Assembly: GCA_025355445.1 (NCBI GenBank)
Contig: JANXZQ010000414.1
Location: 1 to 42,687, forward strand
Origin: Gammaproteobacteria bacterium
GTDB taxonomy: Bacteria > Pseudomonadota > Gammaproteobacteria > Steroidobacterales > Steroidobacteraceae
Direction of reading: 5' to 3'
Length of the DNA: 42,687 bases
In this document: piece after piece, positions 897 through 32,435 of the stretch
How the letters are laid out: each line of letters begins with the position of its first letter
Position numbering within the stretch: position 1 is the stretch's first letter
Position numbers and translations under genes: made by a program
The notes under the pieces: generated by a model
Databases searched by the model: none
The model's input: the letters and a program-made list of their open reading frames with translations, nothing else
Told to the model about the DNA's origin: nothing

Positions 897-2114
897 TCAC
901 GGCGAGCCGGCGAATCGCGTCTTGAAGCTTCGGACCGCGAGGAAGGTTCCCCCCGATGCCAAGAGTACCCAGGCGAGGCCGACTCCGTACAAAATGCCGA
1001 CCAGACCGTAGCGGCTCCCATACGCCATGCCCGCTGCGGCGATGACCAGACAAACCCACGCCAGCACGCTGATGGCGACCAAGGACTTGGCCGACCCGCA
1101 GGCCGTCACGGCGGTGGTAGAGAATCCCTCCCAGACTTTGAGCATGCCGACGGCGATCGACGCCCAGATCAAATCCCAGCCGATGATGTACTTGCCGGAA
1201 AGGAGATTGCGGAATATCCACGGCGCCGCGACGATGACGACGATGACGGAGACTGCGCAGACGCATGCCGCAGCCGCGCCTTCGCGCAGAATCACGCTGC
1301 GCGCCGCCGCGGCGCTGGTCACCGACCGCAGCCGCGGAAGAAGGCTGAAGCTGGTTCCGGCCTGCAGCATCCGAAACGGCGATCCGGCCACGGCCGCCAG
1401 CACGGCGTAAGTGCCCAGCATGGACAGTGACCCAATTTTGGGAATCGCGAGCCGCTCGAACTGCGACAGCAATTGCACCGCTACGCCTATCCCTAAGGCC
1501 GCGGCGCCCTCGCGCAGTGCAAGAACCGCGTTGATCGGCTCGCGCCCCGAATTGACCGTGCGGCGAGCCCACCACCAGCCGAGACCGGAGGAGAGCACAT
1601 AGGCCGCCGCCACGACGCTGACGACGAAGATGTCGTTATGGATGACGAGCACGGCCGCGAGAATCGCGACCACCAGCAGGACATAGTTATGCACCTGCGA
1701 CAGGGACATGGCCGCGCGAAAGCGGCCCTCGCCCTGAAACACGGCGACGCAGACACGATTCGTGGCGCTGCCGATGACCATGGCCAGGATCAGTGCCACT
1801 ATCGCAGCCGACAGATGATAGTAAGCGCCGGCGATGACCGCGACTCCGAGCGCGGTGATTGTGGCAGCGCTCAGGGCAAGCAGGGCAAGCCGCCGGTCGA
1901 CCCGGGGCCGATGACGGTTGGCGACTACTTCCAGCCCAAAGGGACCGAAGGTCAATCCGAATTGATTCAACGCCAGGGCCAATGTGACGACGCCGAAGCT
2001 TGCGGGTGAGAGGATTTTCGCCAGCAGTATGTTTCCTGCGGCAAAGCCGACTCCGCCGCCCGCGAATGCAACCGCGGACCTCAGTGAGTCGGACTTAATC
2101 AGACGCGCAAGCAT
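897..2114 (-). CDS. Polysaccharide flippase (Wzx/MATE-like), copy 1
   Basis: A 405-residue, almost entirely hydrophobic protein with about 12 predicted membrane segments, typical in length and pattern for lipid-linked oligosaccharide flippases. The N-terminus (AGGGVGFAAGNILLAKILSP region, about 18-37) matches the usual first helix and 'GN.LLA..L.P..FG' pattern of the family. The likely role is to move a lipid-linked repeat unit across the inner membrane. It lies 34 bp downstream of the methyltransferase on the same strand, so the two are probably co-transcribed. It is clearly paralogous to the flippase at 10512-11771: both share a GSPF.MLQ segment, an S(I/V)G(I/M)LKV segment and a C-terminal G..YGVGL.W segment. 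The start at 2114 has no good ribosome-binding site, so the exact N-terminus is uncertain. Confidence 0.85.
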   Translation of the reverse strand: MLARLIKSDSLRSAVAFAGGGVGFAAGNILLAKILSPASFGVVTLALALNQFGLTFGPFGLEVVANRHRPRVDRRLALLALSAATITALGVAVIAGAYYHLSAAIVALILAMVIGSATNRVCVAVFQGEGRFRAAMSLSQVHNYVLLVVAILAAVLVIHNDIFVVSVVAAAYVLSSGLGWWWARRTVNSGREPINAVLALREGAAALGIGVAVQLLSQFERLAIPKIGSLSMLGTYAVLAAVAGSPFRMLQAGTSFSLLPRLRSVTSAAAARSVILREGAAAACVCAVSVIVVIVAAPWIFRNLLSGKYIIGWDLIWASIAVGMLKVWEGFSTTAVTACGSAKSLVAISVLAWVCLVIAAAGMAYGSRYGLVGILYGVGLAWVLLASGGTFLAVRSFKTRFAGSP

Positions 2115-3101: not shown

Positions 3102-4535
3102 GTGAATAACATAGCGACTCCCATGTCAGCAGTTCTCTTTCACCAACATGCGAACTCGCATTGGAATTGGCGTGGTCCGCTCATTCGTGGGGCGCTCCGC
3201 GTTCTACACCCTGAGACCTTGCGAGAACTGGATCTGATCCGCAGCATAGAACTGTCACCTGAGAAAATTCGCGCGGTGCAAAGGGAAAGACTCGAAGCCC
3301 TGCTGCGCCATGCTTGGACTGAAACCGACTACTACCGCGAAGTTCTCGAGGAGTGCGGCGCGGTGCGGAACGGCCGCGTCAATCTGGATCGGTTCACTGA
3401 GATCCCGTTTCTCACCAAGAAAATCATGCGCGAGCAGCCCGAGCGGCTGCGAGCTCGGTCGCTGCCCCAGGGGCGCCGCGCCTTCGCCAACCGGTCGGGC
3501 GGATCCACCGGGCAACCCGTGGATTTCTGGCAGGACAATGTTTATTGGGACGTCACGATCGCAACCCGCAGCTACCAGTTCTCCATGGCCGGCAAGGAAC
3601 TCGGCGAGCGGGAAATGAAGGTGTGGGGCAGCGAACGCGACTTGTTTGCCGGTACCATTGGGCTGAAGGCAAAAGTCGAAAACTTTGTCTACAACCGGCG
3701 CTTTGAGCAGTGCTTTCACCTTCCGGAACAACAGATTCTCGAGATCATCGATCACATCAATGGGTGGAAACCGAAGCTGCTGTGGTGTTATCGCGACGGC
3801 AGTTACGCGATTGCAAAGTATATCAATGAACGCGGCATTCGAATCCACTCTCCCGCGGCCGTCGTGCTGGGGGGCGCGACAATCTATCCCTTCATGCGGG
3901 AGGAGATCGGCAAGGCATTTGGCGCAACGGTGATCAGCGCTTATGGTTCACGCGAAGTTGGCGCCGCAGCCAGCGAGTGCGGTCCAGATCGCGGCCATCA
4001 TGTCGCCGCTCAGGCGCACGTTATCGAGGCGATCGGCGAGGACGAACGGCCGGTGATGGAACGTGAGGGCGAACTGGCAATCACACCCTTGATGAATTTT
4101 GCGATGCCGCTAATCCGCTACCGGATCGGCGATCGCGGCCGCTTGACGGATCGGGCGTGTCCGTGCGGACGCGGCTTTCCGTTGTTGGACGCCTTGTCCG
4201 GACGGGTGATGGAAGCGATGACCAACAGCAAGGGGGAGCATGTGGACGGCGGCTTTGTCATATACGTCCTGACGTATATGGCAGAGGGTGGTTATATGTC
4301 CAAGTTTCAGATCGTTCAGGAAGAAGATGGTTCGATCACCATCAACGTCGTGCCGGAGCCGGGCGTTACCCTTGCGGAGCATAGGACCGACCTGAACCTG
4401 ATCACGGATAAGATTCAATTCGTCATGGGCAAGGATTGTGCCGTCCGGTTCTGCGCGGTGCCTGACATCCCGAGCGCTGCTTCTGGCAAATACCCGTACG
4501 TGATTTGTCGAAAGCCTCCCCTCCAGCGGTCTTAA
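3102..4535 (+). CDS. CapK/PaaK-like adenylate-forming enzyme, copy 1 (divergent member)
   Basis: A 477-residue protein of the phenylacetate-CoA ligase/CapK family, whose members activate a carboxylic acid as an acyl-adenylate. Family motifs are in order: the Ser/Gly-rich ATP-binding loop SGGSTGQP (132-139), YGSREVG (281-287), RYRIGDRG (339-346), a CPCGR pair of cysteines (353-357) and the C-terminal lysine loop SGKYPY (461-466). All catalytic motifs look intact. It is the first of four tandem copies and the least similar: in a 100-residue block around the ATP loop it matches copy 2 at 68 positions, while copies 2-4 match one another at about 86. The start is a GTG with no good ribosome-binding site; an in-frame ATG at 3123 is possible. 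Substrate and acceptor are unknown. The setting suggests glycan modification. Confidence 0.85.
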   Translation: MNNIATPMSAVLFHQHANSHWNWRGPLIRGALRVLHPETLRELDLIRSIELSPEKIRAVQRERLEALLRHAWTETDYYREVLEECGAVRNGRVNLDRFTEIPFLTKKIMREQPERLRARSLPQGRRAFANRSGGSTGQPVDFWQDNVYWDVTIATRSYQFSMAGKELGEREMKVWGSERDLFAGTIGLKAKVENFVYNRRFEQCFHLPEQQILEIIDHINGWKPKLLWCYRDGSYAIAKYINERGIRIHSPAAVVLGGATIYPFMREEIGKAFGATVISAYGSREVGAAASECGPDRGHHVAAQAHVIEAIGEDERPVMEREGELAITPLMNFAMPLIRYRIGDRGRLTDRACPCGRGFPLLDALSGRVMEAMTNSKGEHVDGGFVIYVLTYMAEGGYMSKFQIVQEEDGSITINVVPEPGVTLAEHRTDLNLITDKIQFVMGKDCAVRFCAVPDIPSAASGKYPYVICRKPPLQRS

Positions 4536-4543
4536 CATTATCT

Positions 4544-4555
4544 TGACGCGCGTCA
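4544..4555. promoter_or_regulatory. 12-bp perfect palindrome between CapK copies 1 and 2
   Basis: TGACGCGCGTCA is a perfect palindrome 8 bp after the stop of CapK copy 1, in the only sizeable gap (86 bp) in the array. It could be an operator or a small hairpin; there is no T-run to make it a terminator. A TATACT at 4578-4583 might be a -10 element, but no -35 is correctly spaced. The role is inferred and weak. Confidence 0.3.
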
Positions 4556-4621
4556 CATCAGCGCGCCCTCGTGGCCCTATACTTTCGGCAGATTAATAAT
4601 AACCCTTAGCGCCCTGAGAGA

Positions 4622-6073
4622 ATGAGCTATAACCCGCAGGTACTAGACCCACTGATCGTCTCGCGCCCTGATCGCATTGCTGCCCCAGACCGGAATTGGC
4701 GCGCGCCCTTTATCCGTGCGGCGTTTCGTCTGCAAAACCCTGAAGTTCTAAGAGAACTTGAGGTAATTCAATCAGTTGAGCGGTCCCCGGCACGGCTTAA
4801 AGCGGTCCATGACGCACGCCTCGAGCGGTTATTGCACCACGCCTGGAGCCAGACGGATTATTACCGCGAGGTGCTGGAAGCCTGTGGTGCCGTGCGATCC
4901 GGCCAGGTGAACCTCGACCGGTTCGAGGACATCCCCTTCCTGACGAAGGACATCATTCGCTCGCAAGGCGACCGCTTGATGCCCAAGTCCTTGCCTGCGG
5001 GCCGTAAAGCTCATACGAACCTCTCAGGCGGCTCTACCGGCCAACCGGTGCGCTTCTGGCAGGACAATGTGTACTGGGGCGTGACCATCGCCACACGAAC
5101 CCATCATTTCTCCACGGTCGGCAAGGAAATGGGCCAGCGGGAAATGAAGATCTGGGGCAACGAACAGGACTTCCGTAAGGGCACCATCGGCTGGAAGGCG
5201 AAGTTCGAGAATTTCGTCTATAACCGCAAGTTCGAGCAGTGCTGGCACCTGCCCGACGAGCGCATCCTCGCCATCATCCGCCAGATCAACGAATGGCAGC
5301 CACAAATGCTCTGGTGTTATCGCGACGGCATCGATGGGGTGGCGCGCTATATCAACGAGCATGGCATCCGCGTGCACGCGCCAGCCTCCGTCGTACTGGG
5401 GGGCGCAACGGTCTACCCCTTCATGGCGCAGGCAATCGAAAGAGCATTCAAATCCCCCGCCATCAGCGCCTATGGATCGCGCGAAGTCGGTGCGGTCGCC
5501 TGTCAATGCCTGGAGCGCGGCGGGCTGCATATTGCGACCCAGGCGCACTTGGTCGAAGCGATCGGCCCCGATCAGCGTCCGGTCATGGAAGCCGACGGGG
5601 AACTAGCCATCACGCCGTTGATGAATTACGCCATGCCCTTCATTCGCTACCGCATCGGCGACCGCGGGCGCATGACCCGCCGCCCGTGCACCTGTGGGCG
5701 GGCCTTCCCCATGCTGGACGCGCTGACCGGACGGGTCGTCGAAGTGCTGCACAATCGCAAGGGAGAGCAGATCGACCCTATTTTCTTCATTTGGATCATG
5801 GCCGAAAAGATCAACAATAAGGTCTTGAAGAAAGGTCAAATCGTGCAAGAAGAAGACGGCGCAATCACCGTCAACTTGGTGCTCGAGCCTGACGCGACAA
5901 TGCTGCAGGCGCAGCCGCACCTCGAGGAAATACGCGAGGCCGTGACCCTGGTCATGGGGCCCGAATGCCCGGTTCAATTTACATTTATGGACGCCATCCC
6001 TTTGAGCCAGTCCGGAAAATTTCCCTACATCGTCCGGCGCAAGAGCCTCGAATCAGGTTGCCCGACCCTATAG
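4622..6073 (+). CDS. CapK/PaaK-like adenylate-forming enzyme, copy 2
   Basis: A 483-residue member of the same family, with SGGSTGQP (135-142), YGSREVG (284-290), RYRIGDRG (342-349), CTCGR (356-360) and SGKFPY (464-469), so the ATP-binding and catalytic lysine motifs are intact. GAGAGA precedes the ATG. It starts 86 bp after copy 1 and ends 10 bp before copy 3, so copies 2 and 3 are almost certainly co-transcribed. Within the array its C-terminal part is closest to copy 4 (65 of 80 residues, 391-470) rather than to its neighbour copy 3 (55 of 80). Family knowledge supports ATP-dependent carboxylate activation; the acid and the acceptor cannot be named. CapK-type genes are common in capsule and exopolysaccharide loci, where their reaction is poorly defined. 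Confidence 0.88.
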   Translation: MSYNPQVLDPLIVSRPDRIAAPDRNWRAPFIRAAFRLQNPEVLRELEVIQSVERSPARLKAVHDARLERLLHHAWSQTDYYREVLEACGAVRSGQVNLDRFEDIPFLTKDIIRSQGDRLMPKSLPAGRKAHTNLSGGSTGQPVRFWQDNVYWGVTIATRTHHFSTVGKEMGQREMKIWGNEQDFRKGTIGWKAKFENFVYNRKFEQCWHLPDERILAIIRQINEWQPQMLWCYRDGIDGVARYINEHGIRVHAPASVVLGGATVYPFMAQAIERAFKSPAISAYGSREVGAVACQCLERGGLHIATQAHLVEAIGPDQRPVMEADGELAITPLMNYAMPFIRYRIGDRGRMTRRPCTCGRAFPMLDALTGRVVEVLHNRKGEQIDPIFFIWIMAEKINNKVLKKGQIVQEEDGAITVNLVLEPDATMLQAQPHLEEIREAVTLVMGPECPVQFTFMDAIPLSQSGKFPYIVRRKSLESGCPTL

Positions 6074-6083
6074 GCGCTCGGCA

Positions 6084-7544
6084 ATGAGCCACAATCCACA
6101 GCTGCTCGATGCTACGGTGGCGTTGCGTCTCGAGCGCATTGCGGCCCCTGACCGGAATTGGCGTAAGCCGATGATCCGGGCAGCGCTCGGACTGGCAAAT
6201 CCTGAAGTTCTGCGAGAACTTGAAGTAATTCAATCGGTCGAGCGTTCTGCCGCCAAACTTCAAGGGGTCCACGAGACTCGGCTGGAGCGCTTGCTGCACC
6301 ATGCTTGGAGTCAGACGGATTACTACCGCGAAATACTGGAAGCCTGTGGCGCTGTGCGCTCGGGACAGGTGAACCTCGATCGGTTCGAGGACATTCCCTT
6401 CCTCACCAAGGACATCATTCGCTCCCAGGGCGAGCGGCTGGTCGCACGGAGTCTCCCTGCAGGCCGTAAGGCCTACAAGAATCAATCGGGAGGCTCGACC
6501 GGCCAACCAGTGCGCTTCTGGCAGGACAATGTGTACTGGGGCACCACCATTGCCACGCGAACCTACCATTTCTCCACGGTCGGCAAGGAAATGGGTCAGC
6601 GGGAGATGAAGATTTGGGGCAGCGAGGTGGACTTGCTCAAAGGGAGCATCGGCTGGAAGGCGAAGCTCGAGAACTTTTTCTACAACCGCAAGTTCGAGCA
6701 ATGCTGGCATCTTCCCGAGGAGCGCATTCTCGCCATCATCCGCCATATCAACGAATGGCAGCCGCAAATGTTGTGGTGCTATCGCGACGGCATTGATGCC
6801 GTCGCGCGCTACATCAACGAGCATGGGATTCCAGTGCATTCGCCGGCCTCGATCGTGCTGGGAGGCGCAACGGTTTACCCCTTCATGGCGCAGGCAATCG
6901 AAAGGGCGTTCAAATCGCCCGCGATCAGCGCCTACGGTTCGCGCGAAGTCGGCGCGGTCGCCTGCCAGTGCCTGCACCGCGGCGGGCTGCATATCGCAAC
7001 GCAGGCGCACCGGGTCGAGACGATCGGGCCCGATGGGCGCCCGCTCATGGAGGCCGACGCGGAGCTCGCCATCACGCCGCTGATGAATTACGCCATGCCG
7101 TTCATCCGGTACCGGATCGGCGACCGTGGGCGCATGAGCCGAAAAGACTGTGCGTGTGGACGGGCGTTCCCCACGCTCGACGCCCTGACGGGACGGCTCG
7201 TCGAAGTGCTGCACAATTCCAAGGGAGAGCAGATCGATCCCCTTTTCTTCATGTGGATCATGGATGAAATGCTCAACGACCCCATCGTAAAGAAGGGACA
7301 ATTTGTCCAGGAAGAAGACGGTGCGATCACCCTTAATCTGGTTCTCGAGCCCGGCGCATCGATGCTGCAAGCGCAGCCGCACATGGATAAGGTGCGGCAA
7401 GCGTTGATGCTGGTCATGGGGCCCGAAGGCCCGGTGCGATTTGCATTCCTGGAAGATATTCCGCTCAGTGCGTCGGGAAAATTCCCGTACATCGTCCGGC
7501 GCCAGAGCCTCGATGCAACCGGCGACATAATCCAGAGAAACTAG
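6084..7544 (+). CDS. CapK/PaaK-like adenylate-forming enzyme, copy 3
   Basis: A 486-residue paralogue with the full motif set in the same register as copy 2: SGGSTGQP at about 135, YGSREVG at about 284, RYRIGDRG at about 342, a CACGR pair and SGKFPY near the end. It follows copy 2 by only 10 bp. In the central block (131-230) it is 86% identical to copy 2, but in the small C-terminal domain it falls to about 69%, with changes concentrated just after the QIDP.FF.WIM segment. In adenylate-forming enzymes the C-terminal domain rotates to complete the second half-reaction, so this copy may use a different acceptor; that is inference. Nothing indicates inactivation. Confidence 0.88.
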   Translation: MSHNPQLLDATVALRLERIAAPDRNWRKPMIRAALGLANPEVLRELEVIQSVERSAAKLQGVHETRLERLLHHAWSQTDYYREILEACGAVRSGQVNLDRFEDIPFLTKDIIRSQGERLVARSLPAGRKAYKNQSGGSTGQPVRFWQDNVYWGTTIATRTYHFSTVGKEMGQREMKIWGSEVDLLKGSIGWKAKLENFFYNRKFEQCWHLPEERILAIIRHINEWQPQMLWCYRDGIDAVARYINEHGIPVHSPASIVLGGATVYPFMAQAIERAFKSPAISAYGSREVGAVACQCLHRGGLHIATQAHRVETIGPDGRPLMEADAELAITPLMNYAMPFIRYRIGDRGRMSRKDCACGRAFPTLDALTGRLVEVLHNSKGEQIDPLFFMWIMDEMLNDPIVKKGQFVQEEDGAITLNLVLEPGASMLQAQPHMDKVRQALMLVMGPEGPVRFAFLEDIPLSASGKFPYIVRRQSLDATGDIIQRN

Positions 7545-7581
7545 AATCCCTGATAAGTGTCTGATATCTTGGAAAAAAATA

Positions 7582-9033
7582 GTGAGCCGTATTTCAAAGG
7601 AACTCGATTCTCTGATCCTCTCGCTTCCTAATCGCAATGCGGCCTTGGACCGGAATTGGCGCGCGCCGATCATCCGCACGGCGTTTCGTCTGCAAAACCC
7701 TGGGGTACTTCGGGAACTTGAAGTAATTCAATCGGTTGAGCGCTCTGCGGCGAAGCTTCAGGCGGTTCACCAGGCGCGACTCGAGCAGTTATTGCACCAT
7801 GCCTGGAGTCAGACGGATTACTACCGCGAAGTGCTGGAAGCCTGTGGCGCCGTGCGCGCAGGACGGGTGAACCTCGACCGGTTCGATGACATTCCCTTCC
7901 TGACCAAGGACATCATCCGCTCGCAAGGTGAGCGGTTGATCGCCAAGTCGCTTCCCGCGGGCCGCAAGCCCCACACCAACCGCTCAGGCGGTTCCACCGG
8001 CCAACCGGTGCGCTTCTGGCAGGACAATGTGTACTGGGACACCACTATCGCCACCCGCATCTATCATTTCTCCACGGTCGGCAAGGGAATTGGCCAGCGG
8101 GAGATGAAGATCTGGGGCAACGAACCGGATTTGCGTAAAGGCACCATCGGCTGGAAGGCCAAGCTCGAGAACTTCGTCTACAACCGCAAGTTCGAGCAAT
8201 GCTGGCATCTTCCCGAAGAGCGCATCCTCGCCATCATCCGTCATATCGACGAATGGCAGCCGCAAATGTTGTGGTGTTTCCGCGATGGAATCGATGGCGT
8301 GGCGCGCTATATCAATGAGCATCGCATTCGAGTGCATTCACCGGCCTCGGTGGTGCTGGGAGGCGCAACGGTCTACCCCTTCATGGCGCAGGCAATCGAA
8401 AACGCATTCAAATCTCCCGCCATCAGCGCCTACGGATCGCGTGAAGTCGGTGCGGTCGCCTGTCAATGCCTGGAGCGCGGCGGCCTGCATATTGCCACGC
8501 AAGCGCACCGGGTCGAATCGATCGGTCCCGATGAACGTCCGGTCATGGAGGCCGACGGAGAATTGGCCATCACGCCGCTGCTGAATTTCGCCATGCCCTT
8601 CATTCGCTACCGCATCGGGGATCGCGGACGCATGACGCAACGTCAGTGTACCTGCGGGCGCGCCTTCCCCCTGTTGCACGCGCTGACCGGACGGGTCGTC
8701 GAAGTGCTGCACAACCTCAAGGGAGAGCAGATTGACCCGGGCTACTTGATCTGGATCATGGCCGAGAAGATCAACAATAGGGTCTTGAAGAAGGGTCAAA
8801 TCGTGCAGGAAGAAGACGGGGCGATCACTGTCAACCTGGTCCTCGAGCCCGGCGCTTCGATGCCGCAGGCGCAACCGCACCTCGCTGAGATACGCAAGGC
8901 CATGACGCTGGTCATGGGGTCGGAAGCTACGATTCGATTTACTTTCCTGGACGATATTCCCTTGAGTCAGTCCGGAAAATATCCCTACATCGTGCGGCGC
9001 AGGAGCCTAGATTCAGCCGCCCTCGCTCTTTAG
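7582..9033 (+). CDS. CapK/PaaK-like adenylate-forming enzyme, copy 4
   Basis: A 483-residue last copy of the array, GTG start at 7582 with GGAAA upstream, 37 bp after copy 3. SGGSTGQP, YGSREVG, RYRIGDRG, CTCGR and SGKYPY are all present. It resembles copy 2 both in the central block (87 of 100 residues) and in the C-terminal domain (65 of 80), so copies 2 and 4 share a more recent history than either does with the C-terminal part of copy 3. Its 3' end overlaps the convergent GMC oxidoreductase gene by 21 bp, so no terminator separates them. Expected activity is carboxylate adenylation; substrate unknown. Confidence 0.88.
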   Translation: MSRISKELDSLILSLPNRNAALDRNWRAPIIRTAFRLQNPGVLRELEVIQSVERSAAKLQAVHQARLEQLLHHAWSQTDYYREVLEACGAVRAGRVNLDRFDDIPFLTKDIIRSQGERLIAKSLPAGRKPHTNRSGGSTGQPVRFWQDNVYWDTTIATRIYHFSTVGKGIGQREMKIWGNEPDLRKGTIGWKAKLENFVYNRKFEQCWHLPEERILAIIRHIDEWQPQMLWCFRDGIDGVARYINEHRIRVHSPASVVLGGATVYPFMAQAIENAFKSPAISAYGSREVGAVACQCLERGGLHIATQAHRVESIGPDERPVMEADGELAITPLLNFAMPFIRYRIGDRGRMTQRQCTCGRAFPLLHALTGRVVEVLHNLKGEQIDPGYLIWIMAEKINNRVLKKGQIVQEEDGAITVNLVLEPGASMPQAQPHLAEIRKAMTLVMGSEATIRFTFLDDIPLSQSGKYPYIVRRRSLDSAALAL

Positions 9034-10515
9034 ACGCATGGTGAGATGATCCGCCAGCCGCAATGCAAGCGCGGCGATGCTCAACGAAGGCTGCATCGCG
9101 CCGCCCGTCGAAAACACTTCGGATCCGCAAACGTATAAATTCGGCGATTCGTGCACCAACAGATTTTTGTCGACGACGCTGGTTCGAGGATCGGCCCCCA
9201 TGCGGCAGGCTCCCTGATGGTGCCGCGACCACGCAACTTCGGCTTCCCGGACGCCCGTCGCGCCGATCTGAACGAGCCAGCCCCCTATCAGCGAGCGCGC
9301 CCGGTCGAGCAGCGCCAAGTCCTCGTCGGAGAAATTGAAAATCAAATGCGCGATCGGACGGCCGAAAACGTCGACGCGTGTTTTCGACAGCGTGATGCGG
9401 TTGGCAAGCGAAATTTTCATCTCGGCTGCGGCGCCCACGTAGAAAGCCGCCCGCACGAGCCGGCTCATGACCGACAGCATATTGCGCGGCACATTGGCCA
9501 GCCGGAAGGGCAGTATGTGGTTCGGCAACAGCCAGGCTTGCCGGAACGCCGGAATCAGCGCGCCTAGACCTTCCGAACGGTAGGTCTGGTAGAACTGGTG
9601 CGTGCGCACGATCTTGTTGGTGGGCATCAACGTCTGCCAGCTGTGCGGAATGCTTGCGTAAAAACCGACGTTGGGGTGCTCGTTGAAGCCGCGTCCGACC
9701 ATGTCGTGTGCATTGCCGATGCCGTTGGGGAAGGCCTCTGATGCCGACGATAGCAGCAGCCTGGGTGACTCGAATCCGCCGCACGAGACCACGAATATAC
9801 GGGAGCGCACGGTTCCTGACCGTCCATCGAGGGTTTTAACCTCAGCGCCGGCGATCTCCTTGTCATTTCCCGCGACCAGGCGCGTCACCGTCGCTCCCGT
9901 GATCACCGTGCCGAACTTTCCGTTGATGAACTCCGGCAGAATTTCCTTTTGGACGTTGAACAGCCGCAGCGTCTTGGTCGGCGTTGCAGTCGCCGAATCT
10001 TCGACCTCGACGCCGAATTTTGCGCATAGTTCCTTCAGGAAGCTCACATCGGGTGAGCCCGGCAGCGGCAGCGCCTGACGGCGCGGCGGGGCAAACCGAG
10101 TGCGGGGCCCGCCTCTGACGCGCAGCATCTTTTCGGCGGCGTCATAATACGAGTCGAGGTCCGAGTAATCGATCGGCCAGGAATTGTCCGCCGGCGTATA
10201 GGGATGCGGCTGGAAGTCGGACGGATGCAGCCGCTCGCAGCGGCCGGTCCAGAAATTTGAGTTGCCCCCCAGCAGCCTCGACGTGGTCCGATTCAGCGGG
10301 TAGTGGGTGTTGCCGGTGTATTCGTACTCGGCGAGCGACTTCAGCCGCTTGTTGGTCAGCCAGCTCGCCAGGCCTTCACCGGATTCTAGAATGAGCGTGC
10401 GGATGCCGCGGCGCGCCAATGTGGTGCCCAGAAACGTGCCGGCGGGACCGGAGCCGATGATGCAGACATCGAACCCACCCGGGGTGTCTAGAGCTGAAAG
10501 ATCCTTGGTCTTCAT
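9013..10515 (-). CDS. GMC-family FAD-dependent oxidoreductase
   Basis: A 500-residue flavoprotein. The N-terminus has the FAD-binding Rossmann motif (CIIGSGPAG, 18-26) followed by a strand ending in Glu (LILESG). The C-terminal region has HHQGACRMG and a YVCGSEVFSTGGAMQPSL segment, the pattern of glucose-methanol-choline oxidoreductases, with His residues where the active-site bases lie. It would oxidise an alcohol, perhaps a sugar or hydroxyacyl hydroxyl. The start is fixed at 10515: GGGAAGGG precedes the ATG, which overlaps the stop of the flippase gene as ATGA (4 bp), implying translational coupling. Longer upstream frames lie inside the flippase and are not needed. It is the last gene of the ten-gene minus-strand unit and is convergent with CapK copy 4. 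Confidence 0.85.
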   Translation of the reverse strand: MKTKDLSALDTPGGFDVCIIGSGPAGTFLGTTLARRGIRTLILESGEGLASWLTNKRLKSLAEYEYTGNTHYPLNRTTSRLLGGNSNFWTGRCERLHPSDFQPHPYTPADNSWPIDYSDLDSYYDAAEKMLRVRGGPRTRFAPPRRQALPLPGSPDVSFLKELCAKFGVEVEDSATATPTKTLRLFNVQKEILPEFINGKFGTVITGATVTRLVAGNDKEIAGAEVKTLDGRSGTVRSRIFVVSCGGFESPRLLLSSASEAFPNGIGNAHDMVGRGFNEHPNVGFYASIPHSWQTLMPTNKIVRTHQFYQTYRSEGLGALIPAFRQAWLLPNHILPFRLANVPRNMLSVMSRLVRAAFYVGAAAEMKISLANRITLSKTRVDVFGRPIAHLIFNFSDEDLALLDRARSLIGGWLVQIGATGVREAEVAWSRHHQGACRMGADPRTSVVDKNLLVHESPNLYVCGSEVFSTGGAMQPSLSIAALALRLADHLTMRLKSEGG

Positions 10516-11771
10516 TTCCCTTCCCGATTGATTGAGGCACTGCGCAGGTGCGGAATGGCGAGCAGGCTGATGACGACGGCGCGGAAAGCCCAGCCAAGGC
10601 CGACGCCATAAACGACACCGGTGAGTCCCCAGGGTGCGCCGGCGACGGCGCCGAGCAAGGCCACGCCGATGGAAATCCAGCCGATCACGCTGAGCCGCAC
10701 GAGTTCCGAGGGCGAGCCCAGGGCGTTGATGGTCGTGGCCACCAACGAGGCCATGACCTTCAGTATCCCCACGCTGATCGCCGCCAGCAATAGCGGCCAA
10801 CCAATGTGGTAGCGCCCGGGGAGAAACCAGGCAAGGATGAACGGCGTCATTACCCAGGCCGCGATCGATGCGACGAGGCACACCGCTCCGACGACCAGTG
10901 CCTCATGAAAGAACAAATGTCGGCGGCGTTCGGGGCTCGCGGCATTGCGCAGCGCAGGCAACAGGGTGTAGCCCACCCCCAGCTGCAGCATTTGGAACGG
11001 TGAACCGGCGATCGTCGCTAGAACACCGAAGGTCGCGACCTGCGCCAATCCCAGCAGTTGCGGAATCACCAGGCGATCAAGCCCAATGAGAATATTTCCG
11101 GCGCCCGAAAAACTGACCGCGGACCATCCTTCCCCCCACGCATACCCGGCGATTGCCGGCGCCCCGGGCAGCGGCTTCGCGACCGCGCGCCACCCGAGCA
11201 TTGCAGTGAGGCAAAAAGTGAGCGACATGGCCGCAGCCGGATATATTGCAGAACTGCCGTGCAGCAGCAGCGTCAGTATCGACGCGACCAACACCGACAC
11301 GTTGGTGCTGGTCGTCAGCAGGAGTGCGAAGCCGAAACGCTCGTGGCTGCGGTAATGCGCCACTGCAACGGTTTTTACGCCGCCCGCGACGATCGATACG
11401 AATAAGCAGATGAGCAAGGCGGGCCGCAAGGGGTAGGCCACGCCGGAGCCAACAGCGAGCACGGCAGCGGTCAGGGCGGAGGTGATGAGTACCTGATTAT
11501 GCAGCTTCGCATCGGGTACGAATTTGCGCCGCGCCAGCACCACATCGGCGCCGATCGGCCCGATGCTGATGCCGATCATGACGATCGAAAAAATCAGCCC
11601 GAAGCGGGCAAATTCATCCTCCGGAAGCACGCGCGCCAGAATCAGGTTGCCGCAGGCAAGGGCGAGGCCGCTCGCGCCCAGGGCCGCCGTCGCCTGCAGA
11701 GACTTGGAGCGCAGCAGCGAATGCAGCAGCTTCATCGCGAGCGGTCTTGGTGCGGCCTGTGGCGTCGTCAT
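10512..11771 (-). CDS. Polysaccharide flippase (Wzx/MATE-like), copy 2
   Basis: A 419-residue integral membrane protein with about 12 hydrophobic segments, a paralogue of the flippase at 897-2114. Shared features include the N-terminal pattern GL.LA.GN.ILARVLP, a GPIGADVVLARRK segment matching GPFGLEVVANRHR in the other copy, GSPFQMLQLG, ISVGILKV and the terminal VVYGVGLGWAF. It should export a lipid-linked glycan unit. Its start codon directly follows the stop of the hotdog/SDR gene (TGAATG), and its stop overlaps the GMC oxidoreductase start, so it is in the middle of a tightly coupled operon. The two flippases lie on either side of the CapK array. Whether they move different glycans or are redundant cannot be seen. 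Confidence 0.85.
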   Translation of the reverse strand: MTTPQAAPRPLAMKLLHSLLRSKSLQATAALGASGLALACGNLILARVLPEDEFARFGLIFSIVMIGISIGPIGADVVLARRKFVPDAKLHNQVLITSALTAAVLAVGSGVAYPLRPALLICLFVSIVAGGVKTVAVAHYRSHERFGFALLLTTSTNVSVLVASILTLLLHGSSAIYPAAAMSLTFCLTAMLGWRAVAKPLPGAPAIAGYAWGEGWSAVSFSGAGNILIGLDRLVIPQLLGLAQVATFGVLATIAGSPFQMLQLGVGYTLLPALRNAASPERRRHLFFHEALVVGAVCLVASIAAWVMTPFILAWFLPGRYHIGWPLLLAAISVGILKVMASLVATTINALGSPSELVRLSVIGWISIGVALLGAVAGAPWGLTGVVYGVGLGWAFRAVVISLLAIPHLRSASINREGK

Positions 11772-13289
11772 TCAGTACAGCTCTAGCAAGCGGAAATTGT
11801 CCGGACCGCGGTTCTTCAAGGCAAGGATCAGCTCATGTGCGATATTCCCCGGATTTGCGGCCGGGTCGAAGGAGAACGGCACATTGGTTTGATCCGTCAG
11901 TATGCGGGGCAGGCGGGCGACGATGAATTCGGCGTTGCGGAACTCCTGCGCGAGCCCGCGGACCAGTCCTTCCTGCGCGCCCTTGGCGGCGAGATAGTGC
12001 GCAAACCCGCGCACCGGGGCTGCCAGGTAGCGTGTGGACACCTGCAGAAATTGCCCGCCTTCGCGCAGCAGCGGCAGCAGATGTCGGGCCGTTTCCAAGG
12101 TGATCGCCAGATTTTGGGCACAGAAATCCGCGATGTCGGCGTTGTCCTGTTCCAGGAACTGCAATTCGCGAATCGGCGGCGCGGCATTGTTGACGATCAG
12201 GTCGAGGCCGCCGAATGCGGCGGCAACATCCTGGGCCAATTGGCGCATCGAATGCTCATCATCGGCGCGGCCCTCGAAAATCTCGGCCTCTCCGCCGGCC
12301 AGACGAATTTCATCCCGCAATGCCGTCGCCGGGCGTGCATCGCCGCGGTAATTGAGCGCAAGCTTCGCGCCCGCCAGGAAGCACGAACGGGCGAGGGCGG
12401 CGCCAAAGCCGCGCGCGGCACCGGAGATAAAGACGTTCTTGGATTGCAGCGGCGGTTCGAGGCCATCAAAGCGGGGAAAATCCTGCAATGTCAGATCCAC
12501 CGGAAGCGGCCGCTTGTACGCCGTGATGCTGAAGCGTGCGATACCGGATCCGTCACCGGCTCCGTCACCGGCGACGGTGTAACGGTTGAAGCGCTCGTCG
12601 AAGGATGCCTCATTCAGCGCGATGTCGATCCCACTGCCGTCATCGCCATCGTCGCCGATATCGCCGGTGTCGGCGAATTCCATTTTCAATTCCGAAAACA
12701 GCGCTTGGCGTCCGGGCATTTCCATGCCCACGTGGTAGCTGGCCCATAGCAGCGCCGTGAGCTGCTTCACCGGCATGTTCTCGGGTCCCACTCCGAAAGC
12801 CTCTTGCAGCGCGGGAAAGGCGTCGGGCGCAACGGAATAGCAAACGTGGCGCGCAGCCATCTGCGGCTCATCCGCGGCCGCATCGCGGGCGACGAACCGG
12901 GAGGCCGTGCGCACGAGATTCGATGCGCATGGCGAGTTCTGCATGTCCGCGGCGAAGGATATGACCGCGTAGTCCACCGGGCCCTTGGCAAAGCGAATGC
13001 GGCGGCCGCCGGCGGTGCTCGTATCTGTCAGATCGTAGTGCTCGCCCAGGAAAAGAGGCTTGCGAAATTCGGCTTTCAGCGATTTCAATTTGAACGGCCG
13101 GCCGCCGGACCAATGACCCAGAGCATAGAGCACGGCGGCCATGCCATAGGCGACCGGCCGGCCGAACTGGGTACGGCGCGAATACTCGGCATCGCGATGC
13201 AGCGGGTTTGCATCCTGGCTGGCCGCAAAAAAAGCGCCGACCTGTGCAGGGTTAAATTTCACGTCAGAATTGCCAGTAGAGAAATTCAC
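11772..13289 (-). CDS. Double-hotdog (MaoC-like) dehydratase fused to short-chain dehydrogenase
   Basis: A 505-residue fusion. Residues 10-135 form a MaoC-type hotdog with the hydratase signature DANPLH.D (26-33). Residues 145-260 look like a second hotdog (VGMEMPGRQALFSEL). From about 283 there is an SDR Rossmann domain: GAARGFG cofactor loop (290-296), NNAA (367-370) and a YLAAK catalytic Tyr/Lys pair (432-436). This is the ketoreductase-plus-dehydratase pairing used on acyl-ACP or acyl-CoA chains, so it may tailor the chain carried by the nearby ACP (inference). Two short Asp/Gly-rich stretches (208-220, 241-249) look like loop expansions from DNA micro-repeats. Two GTG starts are possible: 13289 overlaps the MBOAT gene by 26 bp, and 13262 lies just after the MBOAT stop. 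Neither has a good ribosome-binding site. Confidence 0.8.
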   Translation of the reverse strand: MNFSTGNSDVKFNPAQVGAFFAASQDANPLHRDAEYSRRTQFGRPVAYGMAAVLYALGHWSGGRPFKLKSLKAEFRKPLFLGEHYDLTDTSTAGGRRIRFAKGPVDYAVISFAADMQNSPCASNLVRTASRFVARDAAADEPQMAARHVCYSVAPDAFPALQEAFGVGPENMPVKQLTALLWASYHVGMEMPGRQALFSELKMEFADTGDIGDDGDDGSGIDIALNEASFDERFNRYTVAGDGAGDGSGIARFSITAYKRPLPVDLTLQDFPRFDGLEPPLQSKNVFISGAARGFGAALARSCFLAGAKLALNYRGDARPATALRDEIRLAGGEAEIFEGRADDEHSMRQLAQDVAAAFGGLDLIVNNAAPPIRELQFLEQDNADIADFCAQNLAITLETARHLLPLLREGGQFLQVSTRYLAAPVRGFAHYLAAKGAQEGLVRGLAQEFRNAEFIVARLPRILTDQTNVPFSFDPAANPGNIAHELILALKNRGPDNFRLLELY

Positions 13290-14889
13290 TGATACCGGCG
13301 ACGTGGATCACTCCCACCGCCGCGATCGCCGCCGTCGCGAGCGCCCAGCCGAAGGAAGAATTCCAGTTGAAGCTCCAGCGCGGGCCGTCTTTGGCGGCAG
13401 CCGCCGCGTCAAATCCTAAGGCCGGTTCGTGTTTCGAGAGAATCCGCTGAGTGTTCGGCGCGAGCCATGCCAGTGCCAGCAGGCCCAAAATCCATTCGCA
13501 CATGGGCAAAAAGGTGACGTCCGCCGGCGCAATGTGCACACCCTGCTTGTCCAGGGAACCTGCGAACCCTCCCAAGCGTGCGATCGCCGTCGGCGGCAAC
13601 GCGGCGCCGTGAGAGCCGATCATGCCGTGGATGATGTTCCACGCCGAGGCCATGGTGGGCGAGCGGAAGAACACCATTCCCGCGACCACGCAAACGAAGG
13701 TCAGCAGTCCGCCCGCCAGATCGACCAGGCGCGGCAGCGGATGATCCTTGCGCCAACGATTGCGAATCATCAGGCGCCACACGTGATTCACCGTCAGGTA
13801 CACCCCGTTCAGGAAGCCCCAGAAGATGAACGCGTAGCCGGCGCCGTGCCAGAATCCGGATATGCACATGGTGAAAATCGTGGGCAAGGCCAGGACTGTG
13901 ACGAAGGTGCCGAAGGTCGTATTCTTGCCGCTCATGCCCTTCAAACCCTTGGCAAGGCGCCGACGAGTGATCCCAAGAGTCAGCGGATTGTACAAGTAAG
14001 CCGTTAGGAACCGCGTCAGCGTCATGTGCCATCGCAGCCAGAAGTCGATGATGCTGGTGGCGCGAAGCGGCGAGTTGAAATTCGGCGGCAGCCGGATGCC
14101 GAACAGACGCGCGATGCCGATGGCCATGTCCGAATAGCCTGAAAAATCGAAGTAGATCTGCAAGGTAAACCCGAGCGCCGCCATCCAGGCGTAAAACAAG
14201 GTGATGGGGGTGCCGGCAGCCGAATGTCCATAGATGGCGGTGACCATGGGCGCAATGCCGTCGGCAAGCACTGCCTTCTTGAACAGGCCGGCAAAAAACA
14301 GCGTCAATCCGACCGTCACATTCTGGCCGTCATACCTACACGGCGCCCGCTCGAACTGCGGCATCACTTCGCGGTAGTGCACGATGGGGCCGGCAATCAA
14401 TTGCGGGAAGAATAGTACAAACAGGCAGTAGTCCTGCAGCGTGAACGCGGTGACGCGCTTAGAGGAAACGTCGATGAGAAAGGCGATTTTTTGAAACGTG
14501 ATGAAGGAGATTCCCAACGGCAGGATGATTTTCGCAAGCACGTAGTTCGTGCCGAAAATGTCATCGGTCGCAGTGACGAAGAAATTCGCGTATTTGAAAT
14601 AGCCGAGAAAGGCGATGTTGAAGGCAATGCCTATTACCAGCACCGCGCGGGCCTTGAGCCGGTCCTCGTCACCCGAAAATCGCTGCAGCAGTCGGGCGAG
14701 CCCGAAGTTGATCAGGATCGAAGGCGCGATCAACAAGACGTTCAGGGGCCGCCACCAGGAGTAGAAAAACAAGGACGCCAATATCAGCCAGCGTACGGCA
14801 AGGACCCTCGAGGAACGCCCCAGCAAGTAGAAGACACCTGCCGTGATCGGCAGGAAGAGAAAGATGAATTCGTAGGAATTGAACAGCAC
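13264..14889 (-). CDS. MBOAT-family O-acyltransferase (AlgI-like)
   Basis: A 541-residue membrane-bound O-acyltransferase. The start MLFNSYEFIFLFLP is typical of AlgI/DltB-like proteins. FDFSGYSDMAIG (247-258), FWLRWHMTLTRF (283-294) and the catalytic-histidine segment GFWHGAGYAFIFWG (His348) are present, with many membrane helices. The family passes an acyl group through the membrane to a polysaccharide or other exported acceptor. Here the donor may be the acyl-ACP made by the two genes just upstream (FkbH-like and ACP) instead of acetyl-CoA; that is inferred from gene order. The GTG start at 14889 lies 2 bp after the ACP stop, so translation is probably coupled. The stop overlaps or abuts the hotdog/SDR gene. 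Confidence 0.88.
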   Translation of the reverse strand: MLFNSYEFIFLFLPITAGVFYLLGRSSRVLAVRWLILASLFFYSWWRPLNVLLIAPSILINFGLARLLQRFSGDEDRLKARAVLVIGIAFNIAFLGYFKYANFFVTATDDIFGTNYVLAKIILPLGISFITFQKIAFLIDVSSKRVTAFTLQDYCLFVLFFPQLIAGPIVHYREVMPQFERAPCRYDGQNVTVGLTLFFAGLFKKAVLADGIAPMVTAIYGHSAAGTPITLFYAWMAALGFTLQIYFDFSGYSDMAIGIARLFGIRLPPNFNSPLRATSIIDFWLRWHMTLTRFLTAYLYNPLTLGITRRRLAKGLKGMSGKNTTFGTFVTVLALPTIFTMCISGFWHGAGYAFIFWGFLNGVYLTVNHVWRLMIRNRWRKDHPLPRLVDLAGGLLTFVCVVAGMVFFRSPTMASAWNIIHGMIGSHGAALPPTAIARLGGFAGSLDKQGVHIAPADVTFLPMCEWILGLLALAWLAPNTQRILSKHEPALGFDAAAAAKDGPRWSFNWNSSFGWALATAAIAAVGVIHVAGISEFLYWQF

Positions 14890-14891
14890 GG

Positions 14892-15146
14892 CTATTTTTT
14901 GGCGGATTGCAGCAATTGCGCCCGCGCCACGATCGCACCGACATTTTCAAAGGATTCCACGTCCGCGACGCTGAATCGGATGCGGAGCTCCATTTCGATC
15001 GCGGCGATGAAGTTGACGTAGCTGAACGAATCCCAATTGGAGACGTCGCTGCGCCGCGTCGATAAGGTCAGGCTCAACGAGTCCTCGCCGAGAATGTCAG
15101 CCAGCGTACGCGAAAACAGATCCAACATTTCCTGGTCGTTCATCAT
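14892..15146 (-). CDS. Acyl carrier protein
   Basis: An 84-residue acidic helical protein with WDSFSYVNFI at 38-47. The DSF serine (Ser40) is the expected 4'-phosphopantetheine attachment site of a carrier protein. The start is the first of two adjacent ATG codons at 15146, which overlaps the FkbH stop as ATGA; AGGAA lies about 9 bases upstream. An ACP between FkbH and an MBOAT gene is the arrangement expected if FkbH loads a three-carbon unit on the ACP and the MBOAT protein unloads it (known chemistry for FkbH in glyceryl/methoxymalonyl pathways; use here inferred). The window also encodes a phosphopantetheinyl transferase at 41411-42109 that could activate it. Confidence 0.85.
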   Translation of the reverse strand: MMNDQEMLDLFSRTLADILGEDSLSLTLSTRRSDVSNWDSFSYVNFIAAIEMELRIRFSVADVESFENVGAIVARAQLLQSAKK

Positions 15147-17029
15147 GATTGCGGGTTCCTGGTGATGTGTGTGCGGCGGGGTTGATACAGTTTCAGCTGC
15201 ACTTCCCATGACTGAACATCGGCCGCGGCATCGGAGAGCCGGCTGAAACCTAGGTCCGAGTACAGATTCACGATGACGGCATTCTTGGCGGTGGGGATGA
15301 AATCGCCGCGCAGCGCTTTGACGCCGTGCTCGCGCGCCATTTCCATGGCGATGTTCATCGCTTCGAATTCCAACTCGCGGCCGAACACCCGGCAACTCAT
15401 CACCCAGGTGTCGATCAGGTGTACCCCGGCGTCGGTCGGATGAGGCTTCAATAGCATGACACTGACGAGGCCGTTGTCGCCGAAGCGATCGACCAGCCTG
15501 AACTGCAGCACGAAGACGCCGGGTTCGCGGCTTTGTCGGGTCACTTCTTCGATGCTGTAACGCCGGGTCGTCGTGTTGAATTGATTGGTCTTGTTGATCA
15601 GCTGGGTGACGCGTGTCAAATCCACGTCGCGGACACGCCCGTACACCACGCTCATTTGCAGACCGGCCAGGAACTCCTGCAAATCGCCGCCGGAGGTCAG
15701 CACCGCTTCGCGGGACGCGTTGGCGGCATATTGCTCGCTGCGTTGCCGGTCATCGGAGGTGAAGGCGATGGCTTCGAAGTAGCCGGCGTCCGCGATGCAG
15801 CGCACGTAGTGGGCCGGGTCGGCCGGCAATTCAGGCACCGCGACCATCGGTAACGCCGCGCGCACCGCGGCGCGTTCAACCGGGTTGTCATCGACGAAGA
15901 CCATTGCGTCGAGCCCAAGGTTGAGCTGTTTGGCGATTTGCCGGATGTTGCCTTCCTTCGGCTCCCAGTTGGCGCTGAAACTGGCGATGTCCGAGCGCTG
16001 CAAGACCATTTCAGGGTGATTACTGAACGCCTCCTCTGCGATCCGGGCGTCATTCTTCGAGCATACCGCCAGAACGATGCCACGCTGTGCAAGCTGCTTG
16101 ACGTAGCGCTGCAGGGCGGCGTGAGCCTCGCCCTCGGCGCTGCCCTGTCCGAGTACGATGCCGTCGATGCCAGCATCGCCGATCACGCCGCCCCAAAGCG
16201 TGTTGTCCAGGTCCAGGATGAGGCATTTTTTCGACAAGCCGCGTTGCGCGGCGATGATCCGGGCCAGAAGCTCTCCGTACATGGGCATCGCGGCGGGAGC
16301 GATTTCCATTTTGGCCTGCAGCCATCGCGCCGTGTCGAACCAGGCGTCGATGCCGTCGCGCTCAGCCATTCGCGCAACATCGAGCAGCGCCACTGCGTCG
16401 CTTTGCGCCGCATCGAGGAGCAGATCATTCAAGCGATCGATGAGGCGCAGCGGTGCCCCCCAGACCATCCTGTCGTAATTCCCGAACAGGCTTTCCGATG
16501 TGTTCAGAAATGTCTGTTGGATGACCGTGGCATGCAGACGTTCGCGCGCTTGACTCCACAATTCGCGTATTTCGCGGATAGTCCGGTTCAAGGCATCGTC
16601 CGCTTCGCTGCGGGTCGCGTCGAGCGGAATCGACGCGATGGCTTCGCCGGCGGAAAGGGAGAACAGCACCGTATCCGGTTTGAATTGATGCAAGGCGGAG
16701 GATGATTGCAGCAATTCCTGGCGATACTGTCCATAAGTGCCGACGTAGCAATCGGCGAGCAGACGTCGGCGCAATGCGCCGACGCGAATGCCCGGAATCA
16801 GGTGATCCACGGTCGAGGAGGCGAGCAGCGCAAGCCGCGTCGCCGGCATCGCCGAGCGCAAGTCCTCGTGGCATTCGCCGAGCACGCGATCCAGCGTAAT
16901 GGTCTCGAGATAGTTGAGCCGGTGGTGTGCGAGCGCGGCGAGTCCGTCCAGGCGCTTAAGCGGGCTCGCCGCTGTGCGGGCGGCTCGAAGCTCGGCCCGG
17001 AAATCGGTTGCAAGGGGAAGCCACTGCAT
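15143..17029 (-). CDS. FkbH-like HAD-superfamily IIIC protein
   Basis: A 628-residue FkbH-like protein. The central HAD phosphatase domain has CLILDLDNTLWGG (nucleophile Asp273 and Asp275) and the later AVCSKND and VFVDDNPVE segments. The C-terminal region with LINKTNQFNTTTRRYS is characteristic of FkbH and leads to an acyltransferase-like domain. The N-terminal 250 residues look like the SGNH-like domain common in long FkbH proteins. Studied members take 1,3-bisphosphoglycerate, remove phosphate and load a glyceryl group on an ACP. The ACP gene overlaps its stop, supporting a partner role. It starts 6 bp after the SGNH-like gene. The acyl group might be glyceryl or another hydroxyacid; the sequence does not decide. 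Confidence 0.88.
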   Translation of the reverse strand: MQWLPLATDFRAELRAARTAASPLKRLDGLAALAHHRLNYLETITLDRVLGECHEDLRSAMPATRLALLASSTVDHLIPGIRVGALRRRLLADCYVGTYGQYRQELLQSSSALHQFKPDTVLFSLSAGEAIASIPLDATRSEADDALNRTIREIRELWSQARERLHATVIQQTFLNTSESLFGNYDRMVWGAPLRLIDRLNDLLLDAAQSDAVALLDVARMAERDGIDAWFDTARWLQAKMEIAPAAMPMYGELLARIIAAQRGLSKKCLILDLDNTLWGGVIGDAGIDGIVLGQGSAEGEAHAALQRYVKQLAQRGIVLAVCSKNDARIAEEAFSNHPEMVLQRSDIASFSANWEPKEGNIRQIAKQLNLGLDAMVFVDDNPVERAAVRAALPMVAVPELPADPAHYVRCIADAGYFEAIAFTSDDRQRSEQYAANASREAVLTSGGDLQEFLAGLQMSVVYGRVRDVDLTRVTQLINKTNQFNTTTRRYSIEEVTRQSREPGVFVLQFRLVDRFGDNGLVSVMLLKPHPTDAGVHLIDTWVMSCRVFGRELEFEAMNIAMEMAREHGVKALRGDFIPTAKNAVIVNLYSDLGFSRLSDAAADVQSWEVQLKLYQPRRTHITRNPQS

Positions 17030-17035
17030 CTTGAA

Positions 17036-20956: not shown

Positions 20957-20961
20957 TTCGG

Positions 20962-30910: not shown

Positions 30911-31024
30911 GAGTGCAGAGTATGCCCGTGTTGAAGGCAATTCTGCGACGCGATTCGCAACGTGTGGCCTCCGAGGGCGGGGCCTCTGCTAATATCTGCC
31001 TCCCGCAATTCTCCCAGACCTTCC

Positions 31025-32422: not shown

Positions 32423-32435
32423 CCCTTTCATTTTC

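Follow-up and report, generated by a model that had tools for sequence, protein, structure and literature searches.

In our study, a 42,687-nucleotide stretch of a Steroidobacteraceae contig (the window) was found to carry four tandem genes, cap1 to cap4, for enzymes which are predicted to be active PaaK-type acid ligases. These enzymes are tentatively proposed to activate small acids for a carrier-dependent machine decorating a surface polysaccharide; for this best explanation we infer the identity of the acid, the thiol acceptor, the order of the steps and the polymer. Two things are unusual here, namely how many cap copies there are and the genes which would load acids onto a carrier.

The array of four cap genes

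The initial annotation had described four intact CapK/PaaK-like genes in a polysaccharide locus, and this description holds, as the reading frames are open and the motifs are present in all four copies.

3102..4535, forward strand: cap1, 477 aa, PaaK/CapK-like adenylate-forming enzyme, older paralogue type
4622..6073, forward strand: cap2, 483 aa, PaaK/CapK-like adenylate-forming enzyme
6084..7544, forward strand: cap3, 486 aa, PaaK/CapK-like adenylate-forming enzyme
7582..9033, forward strand: cap4, 483 aa, PaaK/CapK-like adenylate-forming enzyme

The intergenic gaps are 86, 10 and 37 bp, and the 3' end of cap4 overlaps that of a convergent GMC oxidoreductase gene by 21 bp. SGGSTGQP, AYGSREVG, RYRIGD, CxCGR and SGK(F/Y)PY are kept in 4/4 proteins, and each copy carries the motifs of the PaaK/CapK branch of the ANL superfamily, which we take to be the P-loop SGG(S/T)TGxP, A5 as YGxxE, A7 as RYRxGD and the A10 lysine within SGKxPY. 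No inactivating change was found at the catalytic lysine, since the A10 lysine, which aligned with the terminal TGK of 2y4o, is kept in all four copies. The motifs are also intact in 7/7 members of the clade, including one copy at a contig end which is without its N-terminus (contig C134 of the MAG G024).

The assignment to the PaaK-like adenylate-forming family proved correct from the NCBIfam matches and from the solved-structure relatives, which are phenylacetate-CoA ligases with 4r1l ranked first. In NCBIfam, each cap scores best against the model NF045666 of the DVU_1553-family AMP-dependent CoA ligase (E 4e-33 to 6e-34), but the 115.0-117.6 bits reached by cap1-4 lie below its cut-off of 300 bits. 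The phenylacetate-CoA ligase PaaK model TIGR02155 gave 42.5-66.3 bits, below its cut-off of 646.3. The NCBIfam matches listed for the four caps include no DltA model, and Pfam-A gave no match for them at E 0.001, nor for cap2 even at E 5.

The clade of the caps is rare and isolated. In 217 genomes of the family, matches at E <= 1e-60 were found only in the window's genome and in G024, which has at least three cap copies (contigs C144, C134 and C94). CapK relatives within the order are 24-34% identical to cap1; the survey behind this range, like two others, took no more than four candidates from each genome, and a further one no more than five, so that distant or additional relatives could have escaped. 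One copy had been said to be usual in glycan loci, and this agrees with the CapK loci fetched from other genomes, where one copy was found in 21/26, two in 5/26 and three or more in 0/26, in a sample biased to pairs because several stretches were chosen for having two matches. The array of the window was the only one seen with three or more copies.

The probable acylation module beside the array

The genes around the array lie on the opposite strand from the caps. An earlier reading of this DNA had overlooked the ACP/FkbH/MBOAT/SGNH-like acylation module which adjoins it.

897..2114, reverse strand: polysaccharide flippase-like protein (Pfam; counterpart on G024 contig C164)
2149..2931, reverse strand: class I methyltransferase (Pfam; counterpart adjoins the SGNH-like and FkbH genes on G024 C164)
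9013..10515, reverse strand: GMC-type FAD oxidoreductase (Pfam GMC_oxred_N/C; start inferred at Met of MKTKDL)
10512..11771, reverse strand: flippase-like membrane protein (33% identical to the 897-2114 protein, 58% to the G024 counterpart)
11772..13289, reverse strand: fused MaoC-like hotdog and short-chain dehydrogenase, MaoC-SDR (Pfam)
13264..14889, reverse strand: MBOAT O-acyltransferase, DltB-like (Pfam MBOAT; DltB structures at E 5e-28)
14892..15143, reverse strand: stand-alone acyl carrier protein (ACP), 83 aa (PP-binding 22.6 bits, cut-off 20.8)
15143..17029, reverse strand: FkbH (TIGR01686 311.9 bits, above the cut-off of 146.65; stand-alone ACP adjacent)
17036..18001, reverse strand: SGNH-like protein whose N-terminus carries a hydrophobic stretch (putative acyl transferase of the periplasm)
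18012..19931, reverse strand: AsnB-like amidotransferase (Pfam; glycan gene)
19967..20986, reverse strand: NAD-dependent epimerase (Pfam; glycan gene)
20962..22089, reverse strand: UDP-GlcNAc 2-epimerase (Pfam; glycan gene)

From the predicted proteins, the layout of the module looks like a Dlt/Pat-type surface acylation machine to which FkbH and a stand-alone carrier are added. The ACP gene lies between FkbH and MBOAT, directly upstream of the latter; its product has the attachment motif DSF, with W37-D38-S39 present in 13/13 sequences. The C-terminus of the MBOAT is FLYWQF, which fits the FXYXXF acyl-shuttle motif, and this motif stands at the extreme C-terminus in 10/10 MBOATs from FkbH stretches, the window's included; it is not exclusive to FkbH loci, as the MBOAT of one CapK locus (L075) ends likewise. 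H288 and H348 are invariant in nine aligned MBOAT sequences, and one of them is presumably catalytic. The solved relatives of this protein at E 0.001 are only two DltB-type sequences, and with 171 bits it lies below the 375-bit cut-off of TIGR04091 (DltB). For the SGNH-like protein no fitting Pfam or PDB match was found, and S88, D285 and H288 are identical in 6/6 aligned sequences including that of the window. The flippase-like protein at 10512..11771 has no Pfam match of its own. MaoC-SDR was found at E <= 1e-20 in G000, G024 and G206 among eight genomes queried, and in a draw of the class at E 1e-30 in 1/369 genomes, the window's own, with at most four candidates scored per genome. No polyketide synthase gene was found among the scanned ORFs of the window.

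In the proposed mechanism, each Cap would convert an acid and ATP to acyl-AMP and then to a thioester. FkbH, whose expected substrate is 1,3-bisphosphoglycerate, would load a glyceryl unit onto the stand-alone ACP or CoA, and the Cap ligases may load other small acids onto the same acceptors. MaoC-SDR, perhaps with the methyltransferase and the GMC oxidoreductase, may then modify the acyl group. The MBOAT would take over the acyl from the thioester and pass it across the membrane to the tyrosine in the FXYXXF at its own C-terminus, and from there the SGNH-like protein may hand it on to a hydroxyl of a sugar in the polymer. Multiple Cap copies would widen or raise the acyl supply.

Comparison with known systems

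The window resembles the Dlt system (DltA, DltB, DltC, DltD and DltX) in having an adenylate-forming enzyme, an MBOAT, a carrier and a putative SGNH partner (PMC12148441, PMC9338922), and in both a carrier with a phosphopantetheine serine lies beside the MBOAT. In contrast to Dlt, the window has FkbH beside the carrier, its ligases are PaaK-like, and the MBOAT itself carries the shuttle motif which in Dlt belongs to the DltX microprotein. PatAB and AlgIJ (the latter named in PMC4148444) are examples of MBOAT-SGNH pairs. As in these pairs, the MBOAT of the window ends in FXYXXF and its operon encodes an SGNH-like protein, but this operon additionally has a stand-alone ACP and FkbH. In PMC12148441, FXYXXF is said to act in MBOAT-SGNH systems as an acyl-Tyr shuttle, and non-Dlt pathways of this type are given as without a carrier, evidently because acyl-CoA is used; the window has an ACP gene between FkbH and MBOAT. 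FkbH and ACP glycerate operons (tetronates, methoxymalonyl units) have FkbH beside a stand-alone ACP as well as dehydrogenase and methyltransferase genes (PMC7489565), whereas the window shows no polyketide synthase among its scanned ORFs, has an MBOAT beside FkbH and ACP, and has these genes in a glycan locus.

With the CapK/PaaK-like ligases of glycan loci the caps share fold family, size, motifs and surroundings of glycosyltransferase, AsnB and flippase genes. They differ from them in copy number and in the nearby ACP, FkbH and MaoC-SDR. A CapK belongs to the polysaccharide cluster of Rubrivivax gelatinosus, where MBOAT and AsnB-type genes are also listed (PMC3684757). Among the literature matches listed, no paper was found to tie CapK to an ACP/FkbH pathway, to describe FkbH, an MBOAT and an SGNH partner as one acyl-transfer system, or to give the reaction of CapK in glycan loci; FkbH and MBOAT are co-mentioned in two papers, both on cyanobacterial peptides (PMC13122637, PMC10143770). 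CapK-like enzymes are widespread in glycan loci, and the present clade, whose neighbours include tailoring enzymes, a membrane transferase and a likely carrier, offers a concrete and testable reaction scheme. If true, the operon of FkbH, ACP, FXYXXF MBOAT and SGNH-like protein would mean that a pathway other than Dlt can be fed by a carrier.

Neighbourhoods of the clade in other genomes

A neighbourhood with ACP, FkbH, MBOAT and SGNH-like genes is common to the caps in two genera. On G024 contig C144, the genes FkbH-ACP-MBOAT-MaoC_SDR-cap lie on one strand, convergent with flippase-GMC; the gap from MaoC-SDR to cap is 12-129 bp, set by the cap start codon chosen, too wide a range to speak for tight coupling, and the GMC copy, 76% identical to that of the window, is likewise convergent with cap. 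On contig C164, the methyltransferase and SGNH-like genes are accompanied by the flippase gene and the first part of FkbH. The genes of these G024 loci also flank the array of the window.

The caps could instead perform ordinary CapK chemistry apart from the ACP machine, a reading which is somewhat doubtful. According to it, a hydroxy or amino acid is activated and joined in the cytoplasm to the amine or hydroxyl of a sugar or nucleotide-sugar, and the neighbours are merely co-located in a glycan locus. CapK enzymes do not need the machine, since 26/26 other CapK loci are without ACP/FkbH; the window's ACP, FkbH, MaoC_SDR, SGNH-like and GMC proteins found no match in any of them (phmmer at E 1e-6, over stretches no longer than 20 kb). 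Of these loci, 23/26 have a match to a glycosyltransferase, AsnB, WecB or an epimerase, the AsnB-like gene, which the window has too, being found in 14/26 (one of them, L128, weak at 43 bits). The machine can also exist without Cap, as Cap is absent from 6/7 queried genomes with FkbH loci. G206, of the same genus as G024, has SGNH-like-FkbH-ACP-MBOAT-MaoC_SDR and gave no Cap match at E 1e-10 (genome 82% complete, 610 contigs), and the caps therefore look accessory. Moreover, the two G024 copies on C134 and C94 lie outside the module, with ACP, FkbH and MBOAT absent from the 10 neighbours scanned. Against this, the C144 copy lies behind MaoC-SDR on the strand of the module, and the methyltransferase, the flippases and the GMC oxidoreductase accompany cap in both genomes.

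Relationships and specificity of the paralogues

The amino acid identity is 80-85% among cap2-4 and 60-62% between cap1 and these three. In the tree, cap1 is the first branch of the clade and the other six members are supported at 93/94; cap2-4 form one group (92/96 in one tree, 100/99 in another), and cap2 clusters with cap3, cap4 and the C144 copy of G024 (100/99). Judged from these sequences, cap2-4 are a triplication private to the lineage and cap1 is an older paralogue. Pairwise NG86 omega values among cap2-4 are 0.13, 0.15 and 0.20, and cap2-4 are under purifying selection; their dS is 0.58-0.88, a range which is rough at such size.

It is unlikely that the array reflects dosage or neutral amplification, that is, one function copied for more enzyme or since tandem repeats arise readily. 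The grouping of cap2-4 is in its favour, as are the few varying positions in columns 256-297 among them (2/42, compared with 32/77 in the C-terminal domain) and the R185 and W191 common to cap2 and cap4. However, such dS values with omega <=0.20 point to retention under selection, the older paralogue cap1 has different A4-loop letters from the other copies, and low variation in the core is no proof of one substrate, since families of this kind generally keep their catalytic core. The initial annotation had suggested four acids. One to three specificity classes are possible, but "four" is too strong, as cap2-4 are one young group whose adenylation core varies little, and the pocket mapping is ambiguous. 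Regarding this mapping, F141 of PaaK1 aligns to cap2 position 185 in one alignment and 183 in another, and because the two alignments conflict in the A4 loop, the paralogue differences there are a hint only. The AlphaFold2 model of cap2 from six sequences has a mean pLDDT of 44. Within carrier-dependent acylation, it is rather improbable that a single ACP is charged by interchangeable loaders, FkbH for glycerate and the paralogous PaaK-type ligases for different acids, giving a selectable or mixed decoration.

Catalytically dead or regulatory caps, or an assembly artefact, are very improbable: the genome assembly is fragmented (548 contigs, 84% complete, 6% contamination) and our searches found no second assembly of the species, the genome record that shows the array in the same position being this same assembly and thus no independent support, but the intact motifs, open frames and low omega stand against it, as do the several cap copies in the independent assembly G024, and the copies are too divergent in dS for assembly stutter.

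Among plasmids, 92 records match cap2, all at below 60% identity (15 listed of the 92 at 22-31%), and MaoC-SDR had no plasmid match at E 1e-20. A phage origin was considered and rejected, as none of the 23 pattern matches in viral contigs encodes a relative. Promoter-like sites are at chance level (3 against 2.4 by chance), terminator-like sites number 9 against 5.7, and the GC content is 58-60% over the array and 57-63% along the contig.

Organization and rarity of the cap array

The four CapK/PaaK-like open reading frames (ORFs) described in the initial annotation were confirmed to be intact and in tandem, with intergenic gaps of 86, 10 and 37 bp in head-to-tail order.

3102-4535, + strand, cap1, ORF of 477 aa
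4622-6073, + strand, cap2, ORF of 483 aa
6084-7544, + strand, cap3, ORF of 486 aa
7582-9033, + strand, cap4, ORF of 483 aa

The P-loop, A5, A7 and A10 motifs were found in all four proteins, and a check for inactivating changes at the catalytic lysine showed that A10 is kept in 4/4 copies. NCBIfam places the proteins among PaaK-like AMP-forming ligases with every score below the curated cut-offs, a Pfam-A search gave no match, and the relatives with solved structure are mainly phenylacetate-CoA ligases.

The array is a rare paralogue expansion within a glycan locus. At E <= 1e-60 only 2 of 217 family genomes matched, the window's own and G024, a MAG of another genus. In the order draw 40/396 genomes matched cap1 at E <= 1e-25, with 24-34% identity outside the cap clade; 17/150 genomes of another family of the class matched at E <= 1e-40, and 13/398 of the phylum draw at E <= 1e-50, including the window's genome, the next best being G1117 from a different class. 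G024 has copies on its contigs C144, C134 and C94, and a distant relative on C144; the C134 copy lacks its N-terminus at a contig end, and a piece encoding an N-terminus at the end of C94 may be its start.

Among 26 fetched CapK stretches of other genomes (<= 20 kb each, three shorter at contig ends), picked from the better matches of the order and phylum draws, 21 hold one CapK-like ORF, in agreement with the earlier view that one copy is usual in glycan loci, and the search for further multi-copy arrays found none with three or more. The five two-copy loci (L071, L072, L073, L074 and L113) were partly chosen for having two matches and hence give no frequency estimate. In L113 (8641-11542; G1033, another family of the class) two diverged CapK-like genes form a head-to-tail pair.

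Relationships and specificity of the copies

Amino acid identity is 80-85% among cap2-4 and 60-62% between these and cap1. The NG86 values among cap2-4 (dS 0.58-0.88, omega 0.13-0.20) indicate that purifying selection has retained them. In the maximum-likelihood trees cap2-4 form one group (support 92/96 in one tree and 100/99 in another), which is joined next by the C144 copy (100/99 in both), while cap1 and the remaining two G024 copies fall outside; therefore, barring gene transfer, the split between cap1 and the cap2-4 type is older than that of the two genera. Among the genomes seen, the triplication yielding cap2-4 is private to the window's lineage. The nearest outgroup of the cap clade is the G1117 protein (L112, 9482-10867), which has the same longer A4 loop and whose gene has a capsule gene of the PGA_cap type and one for an AsnB-like protein nearby.

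Variable columns among cap2-4 amount to 2/42 in 256-297, 32/77 in the C-terminal domain (384-460) and 16/25 in the N-tail, and loop 178-197 differs at six of its 20 positions (180, 182, 184, 185, 188 and 195). F185 and L191 are common to cap1 and the C134 copy, R185 and W191 to cap2 and cap4, and cap3 has L185 and W191; two alignments differ on which loop residues face the acid. Between one and three specificity classes are plausible, and four appear unlikely. The array of the initial annotation is confirmed and its idea partly supported.

Setting of the array

The setting is more interesting than had been noticed. Beside the array, the minus strand carries genes for a GMC oxidoreductase, one of two flippase-like proteins, MaoC-SDR, MBOAT, ACP, FkbH and an SGNH-like protein, and further AsnB-like, epimerase and UDP-GlcNAc 2-epimerase genes; the gene for the other flippase-like protein lies on the opposite flank together with a methyltransferase gene. 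In C144, flippase and GMC (+) face cap, MaoC-SDR, MBOAT, ACP and FkbH (-), the cap frame beginning at the MaoC-SDR stop codon with candidate start codons 12-129 bp past it. Contig C164 of G024 has flippase and methyltransferase (-) and SGNH-like and the FkbH start (+), and the two FkbH parts suggest that C164 and C144 are neighbouring parts of one locus; if they adjoin, ten gene types are common to the window and G024 loci in rearranged order. With the window proteins as queries (phmmer, E 1e-6), ACP, FkbH, MaoC-SDR, SGNH-like and GMC had no match in the 26 other CapK loci, where a diverged ACP could escape, and MBOAT matched in 2/26, an AsnB-like amidotransferase gene within the fetched stretch in 14/26 and some glycan-type gene in 23/26. 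The parts of the cap locus are all of known kinds, and their combination is a variant of these.

The FkbH-ACP-MBOAT gene group recurs in several of the family's genera (window 13264-18001; FkbH stretches L114-L118 and L120). FkbH matched in 18/217 family genomes at E <= 1e-60, and 11 stretches from 11 of these were sampled. The three genes occur together in G206 (same genus as G024), G011, G161, G145, G004 (twice), G196, C144 and the window; the G017 stretch has an MBOAT (87 bits) ~1.3 kb off, and FkbH with ACP alone was seen in G069, G113 and G155. In G004 two such groups lie divergently within 12 kb (L118, 5247-16641). An SGNH-like relative is present in 5/11 stretches (L114, L116, L117, L118 and L122). 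When seven genomes were searched for cap at E 1e-10, G024 was the sole one with a match, and CapK of the cap clade was not detected in the six others. MaoC-SDR (E 1e-20, eight genomes) is present in G000, G024 and G206; G206 (82% complete) thus has the module with MaoC-SDR, yet no cap ligase match at E 1e-10.

Possible acyl transfer

The window MBOAT ends in FLYWQF. Counting it, 10/10 MBOATs scoring > 60 bits in the FkbH stretches have an F-x-Y-x-x-F ending, as does the MBOAT of CapK locus L075; the L069 MBOAT extends past the stretch end. As described in PMC12148441, this hexapeptide bears the acyl-Tyr intermediate in MBOAT-SGNH systems, whose pathways except Dlt are there described as working without a carrier protein. 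Ser88, Asp285 and His288 of the putative SGNH-like protein are identical in 6/6 aligned sequences, and fold searches with it gave no evidence of an SGNH fold. The FkbH-ACP-MBOAT group may by itself constitute an MBOAT-SGNH system supplied by a carrier. The gene layout suggests that a glycerate-derived or other small acid would be transferred from the carrier onto a polysaccharide, and the cap ligases may enter this route at the ACP, at CoA or at the sugar directly.

The window also has a 4'-phosphopantetheinyl transferase gene (41411-42109), which shares its contig with the ACP gene, an 833-aa ORF holding two GT4-type glycosyltransferase units (27475-29976), and genes for a Fic-domain protein and a HipA-like protein (32787-36099) adjoining tRNA-Ala, tRNA-Glu and gltX (30962-32668).
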